Shown here: piece after piece, positions 19,931 to 28,308 of the stretch
Numbering within the stretch: position 1 is the first letter of the stretch
How the letters are laid out: every line of letters starts with the position of its first letter
From: Actinomycetota bacterium
Lineage (GTDB): Bacteria > Actinomycetota > Coriobacteriia > Anaerosomatales > Anaerosomataceae
DNA: 33,844 nucleotides
NCBI GenBank assembly: GCA_009773565.1
Contig: WSXY01000016.1
Span: 1 to 33,844, forward strand
Direction of reading: 5' to 3'
Made by a program: the position numbers and the translations under genes
Notes under the pieces: generated by a model
What the model was told of the DNA's origin: nothing
Database searches by the model: none
The model's input: the letters and a program-made list of their open reading frames with translations, nothing else

Positions 19931-20344
19931 TTATAGACGCATCTCGCCGAGCAGCTCTGCTACGCGCGCAACGCGCACGCTCTCGTACGCACCGAGGTCG
20001 AGCAGGTGCTTATCGCCTGACACGATCAAATCCGCTTCGCCCGCGACCGCACACTCAAGCACGCGGTTGTCGGCATCGTCGGCAAGGATATGAACTCTAT
20101 CCGTAGGCCGCACCACCTCTGCGACGCGGGCGATCTGTCGAATGACGTCGCGGACGTGCTCATCGTCGAAACCGAGCACCTCGTACAGCTTGTCGGCCAC
20201 TTCGGTCAGGATTGCGGGTGAGGTGATAAGCGTGTACTCACTGAGGATCGCCGCCCGCATCAACGCGGCCGGCTTTCCACCAAGACCGTACGCCGAGATG
20301 TACACGTTTGTATCGAGAACGACCCTACGCCTCGCGGGCTTCAT
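19931..20344 (-). CDS. PIN-domain ribonuclease toxin
   Basis: 137 aa. VVLDTNVYISAYG supplies the first PIN acidic residue; EVADKLYEVLG, then DDADNRVLECAVAGEADLIVSGDKHLLDLG supply the others (D.x(n)DN.VLE...ADLIVSGD), as in COG1569 PIN toxins of VapC-like systems. Such proteins cleave RNA with Mg2+. The ATG at 20344 lies within the last 20 nt of the upstream antitoxin gene (GAGAGG before it), the overlap typical of a coupled toxin-antitoxin pair. Confidence 0.87.
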   Translation of the reverse strand: MKPARRRVVLDTNVYISAYGLGGKPAALMRAAILSEYTLITSPAILTEVADKLYEVLGFDDEHVRDVIRQIARVAEVVRPTDRVHILADDADNRVLECAVAGEADLIVSGDKHLLDLGAYESVRVARVAELLGEMRL

Positions 20345-20576
20345 GGATCAGCCTCTCGACGTCCGACTCCGTACGCACTCCCCGCTCCTGAGCGCGCGAA
20401 CGTCCGTACGCCGAGAGATCCTCGAAGACCATGAGCTCGCGATTCCGCTTGTAGACGCGAAGCATCTCGCGAAAGAGTTCGCTCTTCGAACATCCCTGCG
20501 CAACCGCGATGCGCTCCACATCAGCAGCGATCTCTGGCGGTACCGAGAAGCCAATCGTTGTGGCTGTGCGGACCAT
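20325..20576 (-). CDS. Ribbon-helix-helix (CopG-like) antitoxin
   Basis: 83 aa. The N-terminal half MVRTATTIGFSVPPEIAADV and RIAVAQGCSKSELFREMLR is a ribbon-helix-helix DNA-binding fold; the C-terminal half (LSAYGRSRAQERGVRTESDVERLIHEAREA) would cover the toxin. A good AGGTGAG site lies 6 nt before ATG. It overlaps the PIN toxin gene by 20 nt. Likely an autorepressor together with the toxin. Confidence 0.87.
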   Translation of the reverse strand: MVRTATTIGFSVPPEIAADVERIAVAQGCSKSELFREMLRVYKRNRELMVFEDLSAYGRSRAQERGVRTESDVERLIHEAREA

Positions 20577-20969: not shown

Positions 20970-21377
20970 TCAGAACACCCATGTCGTGAAAGTGATCGCC
21001 AAGCACACGAGCCCGGCGATCGTCCAGCCACGTTCGCTCTTGGCGAAGGCAACCGAATCATGGTAGAGCACGGACGCTTGAATCGCACGCCTCCTTGCCG
21101 AGCGGGCAAGCCATGCCGAAACGCCGTAGAAGCCAGCGAAGCGCACCGTGTCGAGCAGAGGCTGGGCGGGGCTGTCGCCCCAGGCGAAGAATGCGTAGAA
21201 GCCCCCCACCACAACGCTGAAGCCAAAGAAGTACGCGGCTCGCCACCAGTCCCGGTGAACGAGATACCACAGCATCGGGAGAAGAAACGCTCCAACGCTG
21301 AATCGCGTATCGAAGTCTGAACTGACGGCGGAGGGACCACTCTGCCGCGAAGTATCTTGACTGGGAGTATCATTCAT
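20970..21377 (-). CDS. Multi-pass membrane protein, candidate immunity protein for Rhs tip 1
   Basis: 135 aa from ATG at 21377, with GGAGGA 6 nt upstream. After a polar N-terminus (MNDTPSQDTSRQSGPSA) come FSVGAFLLPMLWYLVHRDWW, AAYFFGFSVVVGGFYAFFAWG, a stretch with FAGFYGVSAWLARSARRRAIQ, and a last helix IAGLVCLAITFTTWVF, giving three to four membrane segments. The plan resembles DUF2628-type small membrane proteins. It lies 74 bp downstream of the Rhs tip on the same strand, the standard place for an immunity gene; that role is inference from position only. Base composition is visibly less GC-rich than the flanking core genes. Confidence 0.7.
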   Translation of the reverse strand: MNDTPSQDTSRQSGPSAVSSDFDTRFSVGAFLLPMLWYLVHRDWWRAAYFFGFSVVVGGFYAFFAWGDSPAQPLLDTVRFAGFYGVSAWLARSARRRAIQASVLYHDSVAFAKSERGWTIAGLVCLAITFTTWVF

Positions 21378-21451
21378 CGTGAGTCCTCCAACTAGAAATC
21401 GTTGTCCCGAAAGGAAGTGCCGAGAACGCGACGCGCGTGGACTTCGCGCCC

Positions 21452-22534
21452 TCATGGACGACTTAGTCCACGGGAATTCTGAACCACGACGATTGCCGGC
21501 TTGTTCCTATCCGCCCATTTCTGCCATACGTTGAACCGCAACTTTGACACCCATAAAGCCGTGTAGGGTCCAATCTTCCCTGTGATGCTCCCGGCCTTGC
21601 GATTCGTGGCCCCCCGCTTCGCGGTCTTCACTCGGTAGTTGTGCCAGCCCTGCATGCCGGGGAACCGCTGCGCACACCCTACGCCTATGTCAAAGACCGT
21701 GCCCATGTCCAGGAGCCTATGGATCTTGTGAGCGTTTCCCTTACGCCACCATGATAGTTGCCAGTCCACAGCGAGGCGACCGCTCCCTGAAGAGTAGAAC
21801 CAGTCCACGGTCAGTCTGCACTTGAGCGTCTCGCCCGCTGCGTAAAACAAAGATGCCGCCATTTCACGCCAGTTCGCAGACGGGCTAACAAACCGGTCGT
21901 ATGCCCATATCGTGAACCACTTGACTGACCTCAGCCCACTCGGATCGACACTCCCCACCGGATCCCCGCCGCAGTACTGGTACGCGCTCTCCTCGCCGTC
22001 GGCCTTTGCAGGGTCTTTGGTGATGAACTGAGCGGTCGCGGAGTCGTAGTAACGCTGGGAACAGTAGTAGAGGCCCGAGAAGCCATCGTAGCAGTATCCG
22101 GCATAGCGGAGCGGGTTGGCGTTCGCGATCGCCGCCGCCACGGCTGCGGGAATCGTTGCAGTCCCCGTAGTCGCCACACTACCGGGATTGCCGTACACGT
22201 CGTAGGTCATGTATGCGAATACCACCACGTTCGCGTCGATGAGTTCAGTGACGTCGCCGCGCTGAGTGGTCAGGATGCCGAACGAGACGGGCACAGTCGT
22301 CTCCGTTCCAGCGTACACACCGAGCCAAGGACGCCCCGCTCCGTCTGGCACGTATGTGACACCCCAAGTCGTGCCGTTGCTGCGCTCCGCAGACAGGGCG
22401 AGCATGGTGAGACCGTCATACGTGTATGTCGTCGTTGTGGTGATGCTCCCGCTCGTGACGGTTGACCGCGTGCGCTGTCCACGTGAATCGTACGCGAAGG
22501 TCGCTCCGATCCCCCTGGCCTGCGTCGACTTTTG
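21452..22534 (-). pseudogene. Rhs/YD-repeat C-terminal fragment with variable toxin tip 1
   Basis: The open frame enters from the insertion sequence and covers 361 codons of Rhs sequence; the N-terminal body is absent. The YD-repeat part includes FAYDSRGQRTRS, YTYDGLTMLALS, GDVTELIDANVVV and YMTYDVYGNP. It is followed by the Rhs core end: PLRYAGYCYDGFSGLYYCSQRYYD, then FITKDPAKADGEESAYQYCGGDP and VGSVDPSG. After this DPxG-like junction comes an unrelated tip of about 160 aa (SVKWFTIWAYDRFVSPSANW to NSRGLSRP) with a Trp-rich middle and basic C-terminus. I do not recognise the toxin fold. In polymorphic toxin systems such a tip is the effector domain and the next gene encodes immunity. Without start or secretion region it is an orphan tip. 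Confidence 0.82.
21940..22120 (-). repeat. Rhs core repeat copy 1 (181 bp)
   Basis: This stretch matches 24576-24756 without gaps at roughly 90% identity by eye. It encodes the conserved end of the Rhs core from ANPLRYAGYCYDG to VGSVDP. The sequences on both sides differ, so the repeat marks the segment shared between two toxin cassettes. Confidence 0.85.
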
Positions 22535-22568
22535 TGAGTGACTTCTGTCCTGTATCACTGCTCGGTTT

Positions 22569-23450
22569 TCAAGTTGCCAGGCGCTCGAGGTAGGACAGCC
22601 GGTACTCCACCGGAGTCCGATATCCAAGCGTCGAGTGCATACGCTGTCGATTGTAGAACAGCTCGATGTAGGAGAAGACGTCTTGCTTCACCTCCTCGAG
22701 ATCCTTGTAGTCCTTGTGGTGGATGCACTCGCGCTTAGCCGAGGAGAAGAAGCTCTCCGCCACCGCGTTGTCGAAGGGGCATCCGCTCTTCGACATCGAG
22801 CCCACGATCCCGTTGTCGGCCAGCATGCGCATGAAGCTCTTCGACGCGTACTGGATGCCGCGGTCGGAGTGGAAGACCGTCGGCGTATCGGTGACGCCGC
22901 GCCTGGCTATCGCCGAGGACAAGGCGCGCTTGACCAACTCGACATCGATCGACTTAGAGAGCGCGTGTCCGATCACTTCCCGGTTGAACAGGTCGATCAC
23001 GACCGCCAAATACGTCCACCCGAGCCTGGTCTTGATGTAGGTGATGTCACCAGCCCACACCTCGTTGGGACGAGGTGCGAAGAAATGCTGGTCCAAGGCG
23101 TTGTCGAAGAACCTGCCGTCGGCCTTGCCGGAGCGACCAGGGCGGAAACGTCTTGTCGTGATGGGGTAGAGGCCGGCTTCGCGCATGATTCTTCTCACCT
23201 TGTACTCGGACACGGCAAGACCGCTCTCGTTGAGCGCCCGCGACATCTTGCGGTAGCCGTAGACACGTCGGTTGTCCTCGAAGACCTTGCGCACGTGGCG
23301 CGTGAGGTCGCGGTACGCCTCGGCGCGCTCGGCACGCTGCTGCCGTCTCCTCTTCCACTGCCAGTAGGCAGAAGGCTTCAGCCCGAGCGCTTTGCACATC
23401 TTCTCCACGGTAAAGACGGGGCTGTGACGAAGGATCGCTTCGTACTTCAT
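22569..23450 (-). CDS. IS3-family transposase OrfB (DDE integrase core)
   Basis: 293 aa. An N-terminal HTH_21-like region (VRKVFEDNRRVYGYRKMSRALNE, KVRRIMREAGL) precedes the rve catalytic core: first Asp in WAGDITYIKTRLGW, second in VFHSDRGIQYAS, Glu in FDNAVAESFFSSAK, then YNRQRMHSTLGYRTPVEY. ATG overlaps the orfA stop (ATGA), and an A6 run about 40 nt upstream lets a -1 shift join OrfA and OrfB. All catalytic residues are intact, so it could be active. Confidence 0.92.
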   Translation of the reverse strand: MKYEAILRHSPVFTVEKMCKALGLKPSAYWQWKRRRQQRAERAEAYRDLTRHVRKVFEDNRRVYGYRKMSRALNESGLAVSEYKVRRIMREAGLYPITTRRFRPGRSGKADGRFFDNALDQHFFAPRPNEVWAGDITYIKTRLGWTYLAVVIDLFNREVIGHALSKSIDVELVKRALSSAIARRGVTDTPTVFHSDRGIQYASKSFMRMLADNGIVGSMSKSGCPFDNAVAESFFSSAKRECIHHKDYKDLEEVKQDVFSYIELFYNRQRMHSTLGYRTPVEYRLSYLERLAT

Positions 23451-23791
23451 CCTTGTGGTTGCATGAAGATGCGCAGGGATTTTTTCAGGATCTCGACTTT
23501 CTCGCGCTCCTCTTTGAGCAGCTTCTCGGTACGCTTGAGCTCATGCTCGAGATCCTTGGCCTTCTGTCTGAACTCGGCCGAGGAGACCGGGGTCGGCGTC
23601 TTGATCCCCTTCTCTTCCGCGTAGGTGGGCATGTCGTGGGTCCTTCGGTACTCGCGCACCCACTTGCACACGGTATTGGTGTCGATGCCCATCTCCTCGG
23701 CCACACCCGTGGCGGACTTGCCTGAGGAGAGGATGAACTCGGCGGTCTGTCTTCTGACTTCGGGGGAGTACCTGGTGTTGGGGCTCGGCAT
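23447..23791 (-). CDS. IS3-family transposase OrfA (HTH, leucine-zipper)
   Basis: 114 aa from ATG at 23791 with AAGGAGG upstream. Starts with a helix-turn-helix (RYSPEVRRQTAEFILSSG, VAEEMGIDTNTVCKWVREY) and ends with a Leu-zipper-like coil (AKDLEHELKRTEKLLKEERE). It binds the element ends. Near its 3' end lies AAAAAAT, a likely -1 frameshift site into orfB. Confidence 0.9.
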   Translation of the reverse strand: MPSPNTRYSPEVRRQTAEFILSSGKSATGVAEEMGIDTNTVCKWVREYRRTHDMPTYAEEKGIKTPTPVSSAEFRQKAKDLEHELKRTEKLLKEEREKVEILKKSLRIFMQPQG

Positions 23792-23857
23792 GTCGGGGTT
23801 TCGCCTCCTTGTGTTTGGCGTCACTGCATCTTGTATGCAGACGGCGACAAAACCCAC

Positions 23858-24211
23858 TCACGCTTTTTCAGCGCAGACCAAGACCACTTCTCGAATTGTC
23901 GGAATCGATGCTCCCAGAGCCAGACCTAACGCAAGCGCGGATTGAGTGTCCGCAAGGTAGGACATAGCGACCCACGCAAGAACGGCAACCGTGACTGACA
24001 GCCCCATCCAGCACATTCGCGAATCCAGCGAGTGCGAGAACCATCGCAGGTATCCAGAATCCAGCCTGATTGCCGATGTGTGGAAAACACACACTGTGAC
24101 GAGAACAGCGGACACCACCGCACCTTCGCCTCCGGTCCAAGTGGCCCACTGCGCCAAACCGAAGAGGAGGCCAACTACCACGGCCGTAGCTACGCCCTTA
24201 CCAGTTCTCAC
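23858..24211 (-). CDS. Multi-pass membrane protein, candidate immunity protein for Rhs tip 2
   Basis: 117 aa from GTG at 24211, which shares its first base with the last base of the Rhs tip stop codon (TAGTG), so translation is probably coupled. Four hydrophobic segments: GVATAVVVGLLFGLAQWATW, GAVVSAVLVTVCVF, MGLSVTVAVLAWVAMSYL and ALALGLALGASIPTI, with a short basic N-terminus. No family is recognised. Position directly after the toxin tip is the usual place of an immunity gene. Lower GC than the flanking housekeeping genes. The longer frame from 24268 lies inside the Rhs tip and is not preferred. Confidence 0.7.
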   Translation of the reverse strand: MRTGKGVATAVVVGLLFGLAQWATWTGGEGAVVSAVLVTVCVFHTSAIRLDSGYLRWFSHSLDSRMCWMGLSVTVAVLAWVAMSYLADTQSALALGLALGASIPTIREVVLVCAEKA

Positions 24212-24858
24212 TAGTATCCGGCCCTCCACTTCTTGATGTAGCCCGTCATGTAGAACTGCACGTACCAATAGTCACCCTTACTACCTACGTATCCTGTGGC
24301 GGTTAGGGACTTCTTTGTGTAATGCGCACCCGCGCTACTCGCAATTGCTCTTCCCATCTTCCTCACGCCTTGGCTTGAGCCCGACTTGCCGCCGTAATAG
24401 AGAGCAGCCGCATCGACCACTACTTCGTGGATGTACACGGTGTGGAGTGTGACTAAGACTCTGCAGTACCACTTCCCCGAGTAGCCATGACAGCTGTTCG
24501 CATTCAGCTTGTAGTTGCCGTACCACGACTTCACAACCGTCTCGGTGCGGTATATTAAGGATTTGCGCTCCCCCGTCGGATCGACCTTCCCCACCGGATC
24601 CCCGCCGCAGTACTGATACGCGCTCTCTTCCCCGTCGGCCTTGGCGGGGTCCTTCGTGATGAACTGCGCGGTGGCCGGGTCGTAGTAACGCTGGGAGAGG
24701 TAGTAGAGTCCCGAGAAGCCATCGTAGCAGTATCCGGCATAGCGGAGCGGGTTGGCCGCTGCGACCTCGGCGGCAGTGGTCGCGTCGAGGCTCGCGGTCG
24801 GGGTGGTCGTGGTCTCGGTCGGGCGTCCGAAGGCGTCGTAGCCGTAGAAGGCGTGTTG
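24211..24858 (-). pseudogene. Rhs/YD-repeat C-terminal fragment with variable toxin tip 2
   Basis: About 216 codons, truncated upstream by an insertion sequence. The core part starts HAFYGYDAFGRPTETTTTPT and continues ANPLRYAGYCYDG, FSGLYYLSQRYYDPATAQ, FITKDPAKADGEESAYQYCG and GDPVGKVDPTG, nearly the same as cassette 1. The tip after VDPTGER is about 120 aa, Tyr-, Lys- and Ser-rich, with NANSCHGYSGKWYCRVLVTL, HEVVVDAAALYYGGKSG and SKGDYWYVQFYMTGYIKKW. It is unrelated to tip 1, and I recognise no catalytic motif. The tip and the next gene have visibly lower GC than the surroundings. No start, signal or delivery region is present, so it is an orphan effector tip unless recombination joins it to a full Rhs gene elsewhere. 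Confidence 0.82.
24576..24756 (-). repeat. Rhs core repeat copy 2 (181 bp)
   Basis: Direct repeat of 21940-22120, same length and orientation, encoding the end of the Rhs core just before the variable tip. Differences are scattered single bases, four of which change residues (C/L, S/P, S/K, S/T). Confidence 0.85.
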
Positions 24859-24922
24859 CGTGTCAGAATCTATTGGACACATGCACGTCATACCCATGTC
24901 CCCGATTCTGGCAGGTGTTTCC

Positions 24923-25243
24923 ATGGGACGCAAACCGTATCACACGCCCGACGACAAGATGAACATCGTGCTCTCGGTCTTGCGGGGTGAGACCTCCCAG
25001 ACCGACATCGCTCGGCGTCTCGAGCTGAGCCAGACCACGATCGCCAAGTGGCAGAAGCAGTTCCTCGAGTCCGGACGGGAGGGTCTCGCCCGGGGCGAGA
25101 ACGCCAAGAGCGAGGCGACCAAGCGCGAGGAGGAGCTCACCGACAAAGTCGACGAACTCACGACCGCACTCGGGGAAGCCTACGCCGAACTCAGGGTCTG
25201 GCGGAAAAAAGGGGGTCTTTACTCCCCCCGTACGCGAAGCTAG
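24923..25243 (+). CDS. IS3-like transposase OrfA (HTH)
   Basis: 106 aa from ATG at 24923. Helix-turn-helix region YHTPDDKMNIVLSVLRGE and TDIARRLELSQTTIAKWQKQ, then a Glu/Lys-rich coil (KREEELTDKVDELTTALGEAYAELRVW). The frame contains CGG AAA AAA GGG; slipping by -1 on the A6G run joins it to the integrase frame. An upstream in-frame ATG at 24860 falls on the element tip and is not used. Confidence 0.87.
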   Translation: MGRKPYHTPDDKMNIVLSVLRGETSQTDIARRLELSQTTIAKWQKQFLESGREGLARGENAKSEATKREEELTDKVDELTTALGEAYAELRVWRKKGGLYSPRTRS

Positions 25244-26142
25244 AGGAGATCCGGACAAGGCACTCTGTCCCTGTCTCACGCTTCTGCGCCATCTGCTCGA
25301 TACCCCGCTCGACATGGTACGCGTGGCGTCACGCCCACCTGAACGGACGGACGCCCGTCCGTCGTCTTGCGCCGGTCGTCGACGAGATCGAGCCCCTCGC
25401 CGCGGCCCACGCCTACACGTACTCTGCCTGGGGTCACCGCAAGATATGGGCGATGATGCGTGCCGAGGGGGCGCGGGCGTCTGCGAGCAGCGTGGCACGC
25501 GCCCTCAAGCGAAGGGGCCTGTTGCAAGCGCCGAACTTCCGGCACGAACGCAAGATGTACGCCCAGGTCCGCAAGGAGACGTTCTTGAACCCTCCGAAGA
25601 CCCGCAACCGGGTGTGGCAAGCCGACTTCACGGAGTACGAGACCGACGCTGGCGGCACCTGGAGGATATGCATCGTGATCGACTATGCGACCAAGGTGGT
25701 GCTCGCTGCTCGCATCGCCGGGACCTCGACGGCGCTCGACGCCATCCAGACCGTGATGGATGCGATCTCGGAGGCCGAGCGTCTCTCGGATCATGAGCTC
25801 GCGCACGACTGCGTGGACGTCGAGACCGGAGAGATCGTGCCGCTTTCCCTCGTCACGGACAACGGGGCCGCGTTCAAGGCGACGCGCTTCAAGACGTTCA
25901 TCGACTCGCTTGCCGAGCTCCGCCACGTGCGCACGAGACATCATGCTCCGGAGACGAACGGGGTGGTGGAGCGGTTCAACTCAACGCTCAAGTACGAACA
26001 CCTCTACCGGCTCCCGATCCCGGATGCCGCCACGCTGATGGACGAGGTCGCCTGGTTCATCGAGTTCTACAACACGAAGCGGCCCCACCAGACGCTCGGT
26101 CAGCGACCGCCGATCGAGGCCTACCGCGAGACAGGGTTATGA
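25204..26142 (+). CDS. IS3-like transposase OrfB (rve integrase core, -1 frame)
   Basis: About 312 residues in the -1 frame from the slippery site at 25205-25211; probably made as an OrfAB fusion. HTH-type segment YSAWGHRKIWAMMRAEG, ASSVARALKRRGLL, then DDE core: Asp in VWQADFTEYETDAGG, Asp in LVTDNGAAFKATRF, Glu in ETNGVVERFNSTLKYEHL, and FYNTKRPHQTLGQRPPIEAY. Catalytic residues are intact. No separate strong start is seen. Confidence 0.88.
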   Translation, partial: EKRGSLLPPYAKLEEIRTRHSVPVSRFCAICSIPRSTWYAWRHAHLNGRTPVRRLAPVVDEIEPLAAAHAYTYSAWGHRKIWAMMRAEGARASASSVARALKRRGLLQAPNFRHERKMYAQVRKETFLNPPKTRNRVWQADFTEYETDAGGTWRICIVIDYATKVVLAARIAGTSTALDAIQTVMDAISEAERLSDHELAHDCVDVETGEIVPLSLVTDNGAAFKATRFKTFIDSLAELRHVRTRHHAPETNGVVERFNSTLKYEHLYRLPIPDAATLMDEVAWFIEFYNTKRPHQTLGQRPPIEAYRETGL

Positions 26143-26203
26143 CGTATTCCGGGACAAAAGTGTCCAATCGGGTTGACACAACACAGAGACTGGCAAGGCT
26201 TTC

Positions 26204-26241: not shown

Positions 26242-28308
26242 CTACCGCTTGCGCTTCCTGACCCCGTGGGCTGATCCTTTGCGGGCGCCTTGCTTGAGGC
26301 GCGCGAGCACCTCGTCGGCGGTCGATGACTCCACTTCGGCCTTGATCTTGACGACCTGGTCGCGCAGTCGCGCCGCCGTCTCGAAGTCGAGCGCCTCGGC
26401 GGCGCCATGCATGTCCTCTTCCATCGTTGCGATGATGCGGGCAAGCTCCGCGCGCGGAAGCTTGCCAAGTTCCTCGGCAACCACAACGCTCGATTCGAGA
26501 CCCGCTTCCGTCTCGCGCACGTATTGTGCGATGTCGTGGATCAGCTTGCGGATGGTCTTGGGCTCAATGCCATGCTCGAGGTTATACGCGGTCTGGATCG
26601 CGCGGCGGCGGTCGGTCTCCTCGATGGCGGTACGCATGGCATCACTTACCTTGTCGGCGTAGAGAATGACCTCGCCAGAGACGTTTCGCGCGGCGCGGCC
26701 GATGGTCTGGATGAGGCTGCGGTGATTGCGGAGGAAGCCCGCCTTATCCGCATCGAGAATCGCCACCAGTGAGACTTCGGGCAGGTCCAGTCCCTCACGC
26801 AGCAAGTTGATGCCGACCACCGCGTCGACGACCCCGGCTCGCAAGTCACGCAGGATCTCGATGCGCTCAAGGGTGCCGATGTCGCTGTGGATGTAGCGGA
26901 CCTTGATGCCGTGCTCGAAGAGGTACTCCGTGAGGTCCTCGGCCATCTTCTTGGTGAGGGTCGTGATGAGCGTGCGCTCGTCGCGCTCCGCACGCTCGCG
27001 AATCTCGGCGATGATGTCATCGATTTGGCCGCGCGTCTCGCGAACCTCGATCTTTGGGTCCACGAGGCCTGTCGGACGGATGATCTGCTCCACGACCTGA
27101 TCGGCGGTCCGCATCTCGAAGTCACCAGGCGTGGCCGAGACGAACACCGTCTGCGGGATGCGCGCGCGGAACTCCTCGAAGCGCAATGGACGGTTGTCGA
27201 GCGCGCTCGGCAGCCGGAAGCCGTGCTCCACGAGCGTGAGCTTGCGGGAGCGGTCGCCCTCGTACATGCCGTGCAACTGCGGTATGGTCACGTGGGACTC
27301 ATCGATGATGCACAGGAAGTCCTTGCCGAAGTAGTCGATGAGCGTGTGTGGCGGCTCGCCGGGATTTCGACCGTCAAGGTGGCGCGAGTAGTTCTCGACG
27401 CCGTTGCAGTAGCCCATCGTCTCGAGCATCTCGAGGTCGTAGCTGGTGCGCATCTCGAGGCGCTGCGCTTCAAGCACCTTGCCGGCGGCTTTAAGCTCGC
27501 CGAGTCGTATGCGCAACTCCTCGCGGATTGTGTCGAGCGCCTCGGCGACCTTGTCGGGACGCGTCACATAGTGCGTTGCCGGCCACACCGGAAGCGAGTC
27601 GAACGGTGCGATGGCCTCGCCCGTGACCATGTCGACTTCGGTGACCGCCTCGACGGTATCGCCGAAAAGCTCCACGCGCACCGGGTTGTCGTTGTAGGGC
27701 GGGAAGATGTCGACGACATCGCCGCGGACCCGGAAGGTGCCGCGCGAAAGATCGTAGTCGTTGCGGTCGTAGTTGATCTCGATGAGATCGCGGATGAGCG
27801 CGTCGCGGTCGTACTCGTCGCCCACCTTGAGGAACACGGCCATGCCGGCATAATCCTCGGGCGAACCGATGCCGTAGATGCAGCTCACGCTTGCCACCAC
27901 AACGACGTCCTTGCGCGAGAGCAGCGCTGCCGTGGCGGCGTGCCGGAGCTTCTCGACCTCCTCGTTGATCGACGCGTCCTTCTCGATGAACGTGTCAGAG
28001 GACGGCACGTAGGCTTCCGGCTGGTAGTAGTCGTAGTACGACACGAAGTAGACGACGGCGTTGTCCGGCATGATGTCGCGCAGCTCCGAGGCGAGCTGAG
28101 CCGCAAGCGTCTTGTTGGGAGCGAGGATGAGCGTCGGCTTCTGGACGGCCTCCGCGAGCTTGGCGACGGTGAACGTCTTGCCGGAGCCGGTCACGCCGAG
28201 AAGCGTCTGGTCGCGCATGCCTGCGCGGATACCCGCGGTCAGCTCGGCGATCGCCTTCGGCTGGTCGCCCGCCGGTTCGTACTCCGCAACGACCTTGAGT
28301 GCGCCCAC
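26242..28308 (-). CDS. uvrB: UvrABC system protein B (damage verification helicase)
   Basis: 688 aa from GTG at 28308, which has GAAGGAGG just upstream; the frame extends to 28389, but those residues overlap the next gene and are not UvrB-like. Begins [19 protein letters not shown]; Walker [11 protein letters not shown] (38-47); the damage-probing beta-hairpin region [25 protein letters not shown]-type [11 protein letters not shown]; helicase motifs [14 protein letters not shown] and [10 protein letters not shown]-terminal UVR motif [28 protein letters not shown], split here only for description. It hands damage from UvrA to UvrC. In this window it lies about 20 kb from uvrA-uvrC, just upstream of the Rhs island. 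Confidence 0.97.

Follow-up and report, generated by a model that had tools for sequence, protein, structure and literature searches.

The 33,844-nt stretch analysed here (the window, contig C22 of a 2.27 Mb assembly in 25 contigs) carries on its minus strand what we consider to be an orphan Rhs/WapA-type toxin/immunity pair, in which a cationic, aromatic-rich C-terminal tip (tip 2) attacks the cell envelope and a neighbour with four predicted transmembrane (TM) segments (partner 2) is the predicted immunity protein; we put the probability of this reading at about 0.6. Tip 2 is a new tip family within a known kind of system, and we infer its envelope action from context rather than from a recognised domain. 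Most likely, the two genes form a spare toxin/immunity cassette, for use against other bacteria.

The window holds two Rhs remnants on the minus strand, arranged as core 2, tip 2 and partner 2, followed by an insertion sequence (IS_A) and then by core 1, tip 1 and partner 1. The Rhs-associated core 2 (24571-24860; TIGR03696, E 1e-20, match 24571-24840) is the remnant of an Rhs gene cut upstream by a second insertion sequence, IS_B, and leads directly into the 119-aa tip 2 (24214-24570, stop codon TAG at 24213-24211), a predicted toxin, and the 117-aa partner 2 (23861-24211, stop codon TGA at 23860-23858). As the first-pass annotation stated, the stop codon of tip 2 and the GTG start codon of partner 2 (24211-24209) share one base (TAGTG, 24209-24213, minus strand), and a possible ribosome-binding site of partner 2, GGAGGG (24222-24227, minus strand, read by eye from the sequence), is placed some 10 nt ahead of the GTG, within the last codons of tip 2, whose C-terminus reads ...KKWRAGY. 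The second orphan cassette, on the same strand, consists of core 1 (21935-22204; TIGR03696, E 2.5e-19), the 160-aa tip 1 (21455-21934) and the 161-aa partner 1 (20970-21455), a DUF2628-like membrane protein (E 8.5e-5) whose start codon overlaps the tip 1 stop codon (ATGA). IS_A (22535-23860, minus strand) belongs to the IS3 family (transposase NF033516, E 3e-97), its ends being inferred from imperfect inverted repeats (12/20). IS_B (24861-26178, plus strand; NF033516, E 5e-47) is IS3-like and cuts short the Rhs gene to which tip 2 belongs; its ends were inferred by eye from TGTCA...ATTGGACAC repeats that agree at 8/25 positions without gaps. Everything upstream of core 2 has been replaced by IS_B, 63 nt past the inferred end of which a frame ends at 26242 that we take to be uvrB. 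The open frame of tip 2 extends into it from IS_B, and inspection by eye showed no signal peptide. The assembly contains four Rhs cores, of which those on C9 and C17 lie at contig ends, and the RHS-repeat model PF05593 found no carrier body in the 25 contigs, its 5 weak matches all staying below the cut-off; the Rhs carrier may have been lost in assembly gaps. Given that insertion sequences flank the pair, that the upstream part is replaced by IS_B and that no carrier was found in the assembly, tip 2 and partner 2 are an orphan cassette.

Cores 1 and 2 share a 239-nt DNA repeat of 82% identity (21935-22173 versus 24571-24809), the end of which at 24571 coincides exactly with the start of tip 2, and at this border the similarity is lost sharply, tips 1 and 2 being unrelated beyond the core repeat (E 8). 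The tip has been replaced wholesale at the core boundary. Tip 2 thus has the makings of an Rhs/WapA C-terminal module, with a core directly before it and an abrupt stop of conservation at the border; a small gene follows directly 3′, as expected for immunity, a correspondence of position only. Core, tip and small membrane partner stand in that order, and the layout is repeated in one distant relative.

The earlier description of tip 2 as rich in Tyr, Lys and Ser, with two Cys, is borne out by its composition (15 Tyr, 11 Lys, 11 Ser and 2 Cys in 119 aa); the protein has a net charge of +12, is 16.8% aromatic and shows 0 TM or hydrophobic segments by hydropathy. Partner 2, previously called a four-helix protein, indeed has four hydrophobic segments in a Kyte-Doolittle scan (residues 6-24, 25-43, 69-87 and 95-113), and because basic residues, as read from the sequence, occupy the N-terminus and the loop between segments 2 and 3 whereas acidic residues lie in the other loops, an N-in/C-in topology suits the protein. 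AlphaFold2 models of both were too poor for fold searches (mean pLDDT 35.6 for tip 2 and 48.1 for partner 2), that of partner 2 being all-helical at low confidence. The GC content is as low as was claimed, at 0.535 in tip 2 and 0.578 in partner 2 compared with 0.678 in the adjoining core and 0.643 in the window. The profile identifies 23858-24574 (GC 0.556) as the GC-poorest stretch of its size: among 663 sampled 717-bp segments only two are as GC-poor, both overlapping it, and none of the 634 sampled segments that do not overlap it is (lowest value, 0.570).

Sequence searches agree with the annotation that tip 2 belongs to no recognised family: there was no match over the cut-off, or with a convincing E-value, in Pfam, NCBIfam, PHROGs, PADLOC or the PDB. 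Partner 2 did not prove to be part of an insertion sequence or a transporter fragment, the outcome that the annotation had named as its refutation: its frame lies outside the inferred IS ends, and no Pfam or NCBIfam family scored over the cut-off (best, BaxI_1, 15.1 versus 26.2 bits). The only other hit, weak and partial, links 49 of its residues (36-84) to phrog_8895, a phage family of unknown function (E 2.4e-4). Two ideas about tip 2 were set aside. Choline-binding (wall-binding) repeats, suggested by the motif TGxxxSxGxYY, score 15.3 bits with PF01473 against a cut-off of 20.5, and in the G440 relative described below only; a lactococcin-972-like action of the basic, aromatic tip found no Pfam match.

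Tip 2 has one relative among the Rhs tips of the 69 genomes of the order, in genome G440 (L114, 2305-2697; phmmer 2e-10, 30% identity, 35 invariant columns); two tips follow Rhs cores on the L114 stretch, and the relative is the second of them. Common to both are WYxxYxLxxNxCHxxSGxWY and TGxxxSxGxYxYxxF. The two-Cys motif that had been singled out as a feature does not survive this comparison, the second Cys being Ala in the sole relative; the CH at residues 27-28 of tip 2 is common to both. The relative is separated by a 14-nt gap from the ATG of its own partner, with GGGAG before it, and that partner is a small membrane protein with three segments over the threshold. Homology of the two partners is suggested and goes no further, because the alignment is unevenly gapped (31% identity), the phmmer E-value in the order set is 0.5, and a shuffle Z of 3.8 places the G440 protein third of 77 membrane partners.

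Beyond the order, tip 2 as a single query found no true relative in viral_contigs, plasmids, phages, 396 phylum genomes or genome_contigs, and neither did the G440 tip among plasmids; one hit in genome_contigs (L002) is a chance match to a frame that, as read from the frames, is antisense to transporter genes. A profile of the two tips recovered only its two members from the 69 order genomes and 396 class genomes and nothing from viral_contigs. In our reading, a further hit in G418 (L153) is an antisense overlap of an ABC-type ATPase frame and a MarR-like frame, and the other profile hits in the order and class genomes (E 0.006 to 0.7) were taken as chance. Compared as a profile with 158 tips from the order and the control, the two-row alignment gave nothing above 3.5% probability besides its own members. 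For partner 2, 36 of the 396 class genomes had a match at E 0.1 or below, its own included (best other, E 0.0026); several of these matches contain internal stops, none is full length, and they were taken as chance likeness among hydrophobic proteins.

The claim that these genes are a toxin and its immunity protein thus stands in part. The tests made here agree with an Rhs tip outside the searched families that is accompanied by a small membrane protein, the two probably being toxin and immunity. Because tip 2 is an orphan, TAGTG cannot serve as evidence for a working toxin co-expressed with its immunity protein, and the relative does without the overlap.

A survey of the order provides the wider context. 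TIGR03696 was found in 41 of the 69 genomes, and after three contig-end stretches (G415:C21, G459:C190, G415:C28) had been left out, 111 distinct tips were cut out, 102 of which, at least 75 aa long, were kept (103 with a rebuilt core model). Among tip pairs related at E<1e-8, 12/38 have related downstream frames (E<1e-3), compared with 7/4333 other pairs; thus, many cassettes of the order travel as pairs of tip and downstream frame. The remaining 26 of the 38 pairs showed no related downstream frame, and the pair formed by tip 2 and its relative is not among the 12 positive cases. Tip 1 is a clear case of pairing, with a relative in L122 (E 4e-22) adjoined by a relative of partner 1 (E 4e-26). 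L097 and L124 likewise contain relatives of partner 1, next to other tips (E 3e-7 and 6e-7).

Downstream frames were defined as at least 60 aa long, with a start between -25 and +120 nt from the tip stop, and counted as multi-TM when a threshold of 1.5 gave two or more hydrophobic segments; the fractions exclude tips that lack a downstream frame of this kind (9 in the order, 8 in the control). The control comprised 60 stretches from 59 of the 77 non-order genomes with a match among 296 phylum genomes, taken as the first match per genome among the matches listed (G204 twice). A multi-TM frame follows 60 of 94 order tips and 17 of 47 tips elsewhere in the phylum (Fisher P 0.002), or 56/94 and 15/47 when only the longest frame is considered (P 0.002). 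Other settings gave 50/87 versus 15/43 (P 0.025), 53/89 versus 12/41 (P 0.002) and 53/94 versus 16/47 (P 0.013), and the difference weakened when the start was confined to -10 to +30 nt (36/67 versus 10/28, P 0.12). Tips within a genome are not independent, and per genome the mean fraction is 0.60, compared with 0.36 for control tips (P 0.03). At least one multi-TM pair is present in 25 of 36 order genomes, and all 4 Rhs tips found in the present genome are followed by a frame with at least two TM segments. Among antisense open frames of the order loci, 19/1229 reach two TM segments, a figure that describes non-coding background rather than a baseline of ordinary genes. Frames with several TM segments thus often adjoin Rhs tips throughout the phylum sample, and do so more often in this order.

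The tips themselves were searched with Pfam at E 0.01 or below (102 order and 55 control tips; counts are per family, so that one tip may count twice). Most order tips match no family, and some of the matches are weak (E down to 0.008). Those found are Ntox44 (4), DUF6973 (3), CHAP (3), NlpC/P60, EF-hand and LydB (2 each) and, once each, phage lysozyme, SLT, YkuD, ELLD, two C39 models, C70, a Zn-dependent PLC, a single nuclease (Tox-REase-7) and five others. The control tips yielded HINT-type pretoxin models (at most 3), nucleases of the LHH, Tox-REase-7, EC869-like and GIY-YIG kinds, Ntox28, Ntox33, PT-TG and three weak others, and Pfam found no wall hydrolase among the 55. The few recognised enzymes among order tips are mainly wall or lipid enzymes, those of the control nucleases. 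Downstream of one Ntox44-like tip (L114, 428-916; a partial match) lies a frame with five hydrophobic segments, which hints at an envelope target for this tip as well. In the Rhs carriers of relatives, three of which were scanned (one frame being whole and the others truncated where the stretch ends), DNRLRE and DUF6531 occur in 2/3 and YD repeats in 3/3, and four carrier N-termini look signal-peptide-like by eye.

On this basis, tip 2 would most likely belong to a large set of interchangeable warheads carried by an Rhs protein that resembles WapA and is exported by Sec. Through recombination at the core repeat, it would be joined to such a protein in its full-length form; the joined tip would be presented to a neighbouring cell and act on its envelope, that is, on the membrane or a lipid-linked wall precursor; and the four-TM partner 2 would sit in the membrane of the producer and block tip 2 there. 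A membrane-embedded or lipid-linked target is our preferred guess, of low certainty. The cassette would be a store and possibly also provide immunity against neighbours that deploy tip 2. The likeness to WapA-type secreted toxins lies in the signal-like start and DNRLRE/YD-repeat carrier seen in relatives of tip 2, and the difference in the multi-TM partners that are frequent in this order.

The closest parallels in state are the orphan CdiA-CT/CdiI and Rhs-CT/RhsI modules which, as described by Poole et al. 2011 in the parts of PMC3150448 consulted, likewise comprise a carrier fragment, a polymorphic tip without start signals and an immunity gene directly 3′, in tandem cassettes and with IS elements. 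Unlike those modules, the present cassette has a four-TM partner, a Sec-exported-looking carrier in relatives and a tip outside the searched families. According to the same passages, the toxin and immunity proteins of orphan CDI modules are functional; strain EC93 of E. coli produces the immunity protein of its orphan module, whereas the toxin apparently is not made (PMC3150448). By analogy, tip 2 is probably silent at present, and it is likely that the partner is made and the tip is not.

In a reading compatible with a toxin/immunity origin, and which we regard as possible if somewhat doubtful, the pair is a decayed relic, both genes having been silenced by the insertion sequences and partner 2 clipped, so that no present function is left. 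Insertion sequences do stand on both sides, the assembly yielded no carrier gene, and a scan for the sigma-70 consensus, the only promoter type sought, found no promoter-like site in 23700-25000. Furthermore, the inferred left end of IS_A, TGAGTGGG..., begins with the stop codon of partner 2 as its first three bases, so that the C-terminus of partner 2 may have been clipped by IS_A. Against decay, neither frame is interrupted, partner 2 retains its four TM segments, and orphan modules elsewhere work, as the cited passages of PMC3150448 report. The IS ends rest on imperfect repeats: no target duplication was seen for either element, and a search of 27 genomes of the family for other copies of IS_A that would confirm its ends returned IS_A itself and no more. 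In place of a target duplication, both elements are preceded by GCG at their inferred left end and followed by CAA at the right, common flanks that are possibly due to chance or to IS-mediated deletions. Terminator-like sites number 3 in 23700-25000, compared with 0.7 expected; one such stem-loop with a T-rich tail (23859-23875) spans the partner 2 stop codon and the inferred end of IS_A.

We consider it unlikely that tip 2 instead acts in the cytosol after entry, with the membrane partner blocking entry rather than the toxic act. The passages of PMC3482391 on the two-TM immunity proteins do raise the thought that these might prevent uptake at the membrane, and the basic charge of tip 2 would also suit nucleic-acid binding. 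However, neither Pfam nor the other family searches gave a nuclease match for tip 2, and the few enzymes recognised among order tips are for the most part wall or lipid enzymes.

A pore former of the Tse5 kind, countered by a membrane immunity protein, is distinctly improbable. Tse5/Tsi5, as presented in the sections of PMC9637101 consulted, resembles the present pair in combining an Rhs tip with an integral-membrane immunity protein, Tsi5 having two predicted TM regions and partner 2, whose function is predicted, four. Yet Tse5-CT inserts into membranes, has predicted membrane helices and is delivered by a T6SS, unlike the strongly basic tip 2; because tip 2 has a membrane partner and no TM segment of its own, a simple Tse5-like pore is less favoured than the envelope-directed action proposed above. 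Least probable, and by a wide measure unlikely, is that partner 2 is an unrelated small membrane protein that follows tip 2 by chance, as its weak likeness to the G440 partner might suggest: the one-base overlap, the layout repeated in the relative and the rarity of multi-TM frames in the antisense, non-coding background argue otherwise.

The order-wide pattern is the more interesting part of these results. If true, the combination of multi-TM neighbours (60/94) with few enzyme tips, mainly wall or lipid enzymes, would suggest that Rhs delivery in this order stops at the target envelope, a question for which tip 2 and partner 2 offer a compact pair. The pattern contrasts with known polymorphic-toxin immunity proteins, nearly all of which are soluble: in the consulted parts of the survey by Zhang et al. 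2012 (PMC3482391), all but a few are cytoplasmic globular proteins; two that are named have a pair of TM helices, and an L,D-peptidase toxin acting at the surface is noted to have some partners that are secreted or span the membrane. More tentatively, tip 2 may found a new family of envelope toxins that are small, basic, rich in aromatic residues and not hydrophobic, predicted to be countered by four-TM immunity proteins, within an order arsenal shifted from cytosolic nucleases to the envelope. Our literature search, in which papers were mostly screened as listings, found no paper on Rhs in Coriobacteriia and no description of tip 2 or of membrane partners being over-represented across the order, and the names OPB41 and Anaerosomatales were absent among the matches listed for toxins.

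Orphan tips also occur in a larger array. In L097 (G131:C1:766400-784800), a long Rhs gene, with a frame of 2342 aa, ends and gives way to a row of orphan tips that carry partial cores; this 18.4-kb stretch holds 12 tips that are 75 aa or longer. Two more Rhs tips lie at contig ends of the genome studied here (L140, C9, 1-9947; L141, C17, 1-4000); they are mutually related (E 3e-27), contain hydrophobic segments, share an EF-hand-like DLDGDGKV after the core, and each has a small multi-TM protein 3′ of it. Finally, a VapBC-like toxin-antitoxin pair stands beside the Rhs remnants of the window (19931-20576), in which a PIN-domain protein (PIN_3, E 3e-19) overlaps a ribbon-helix-helix protein (RHH_1, E 1.6e-5).
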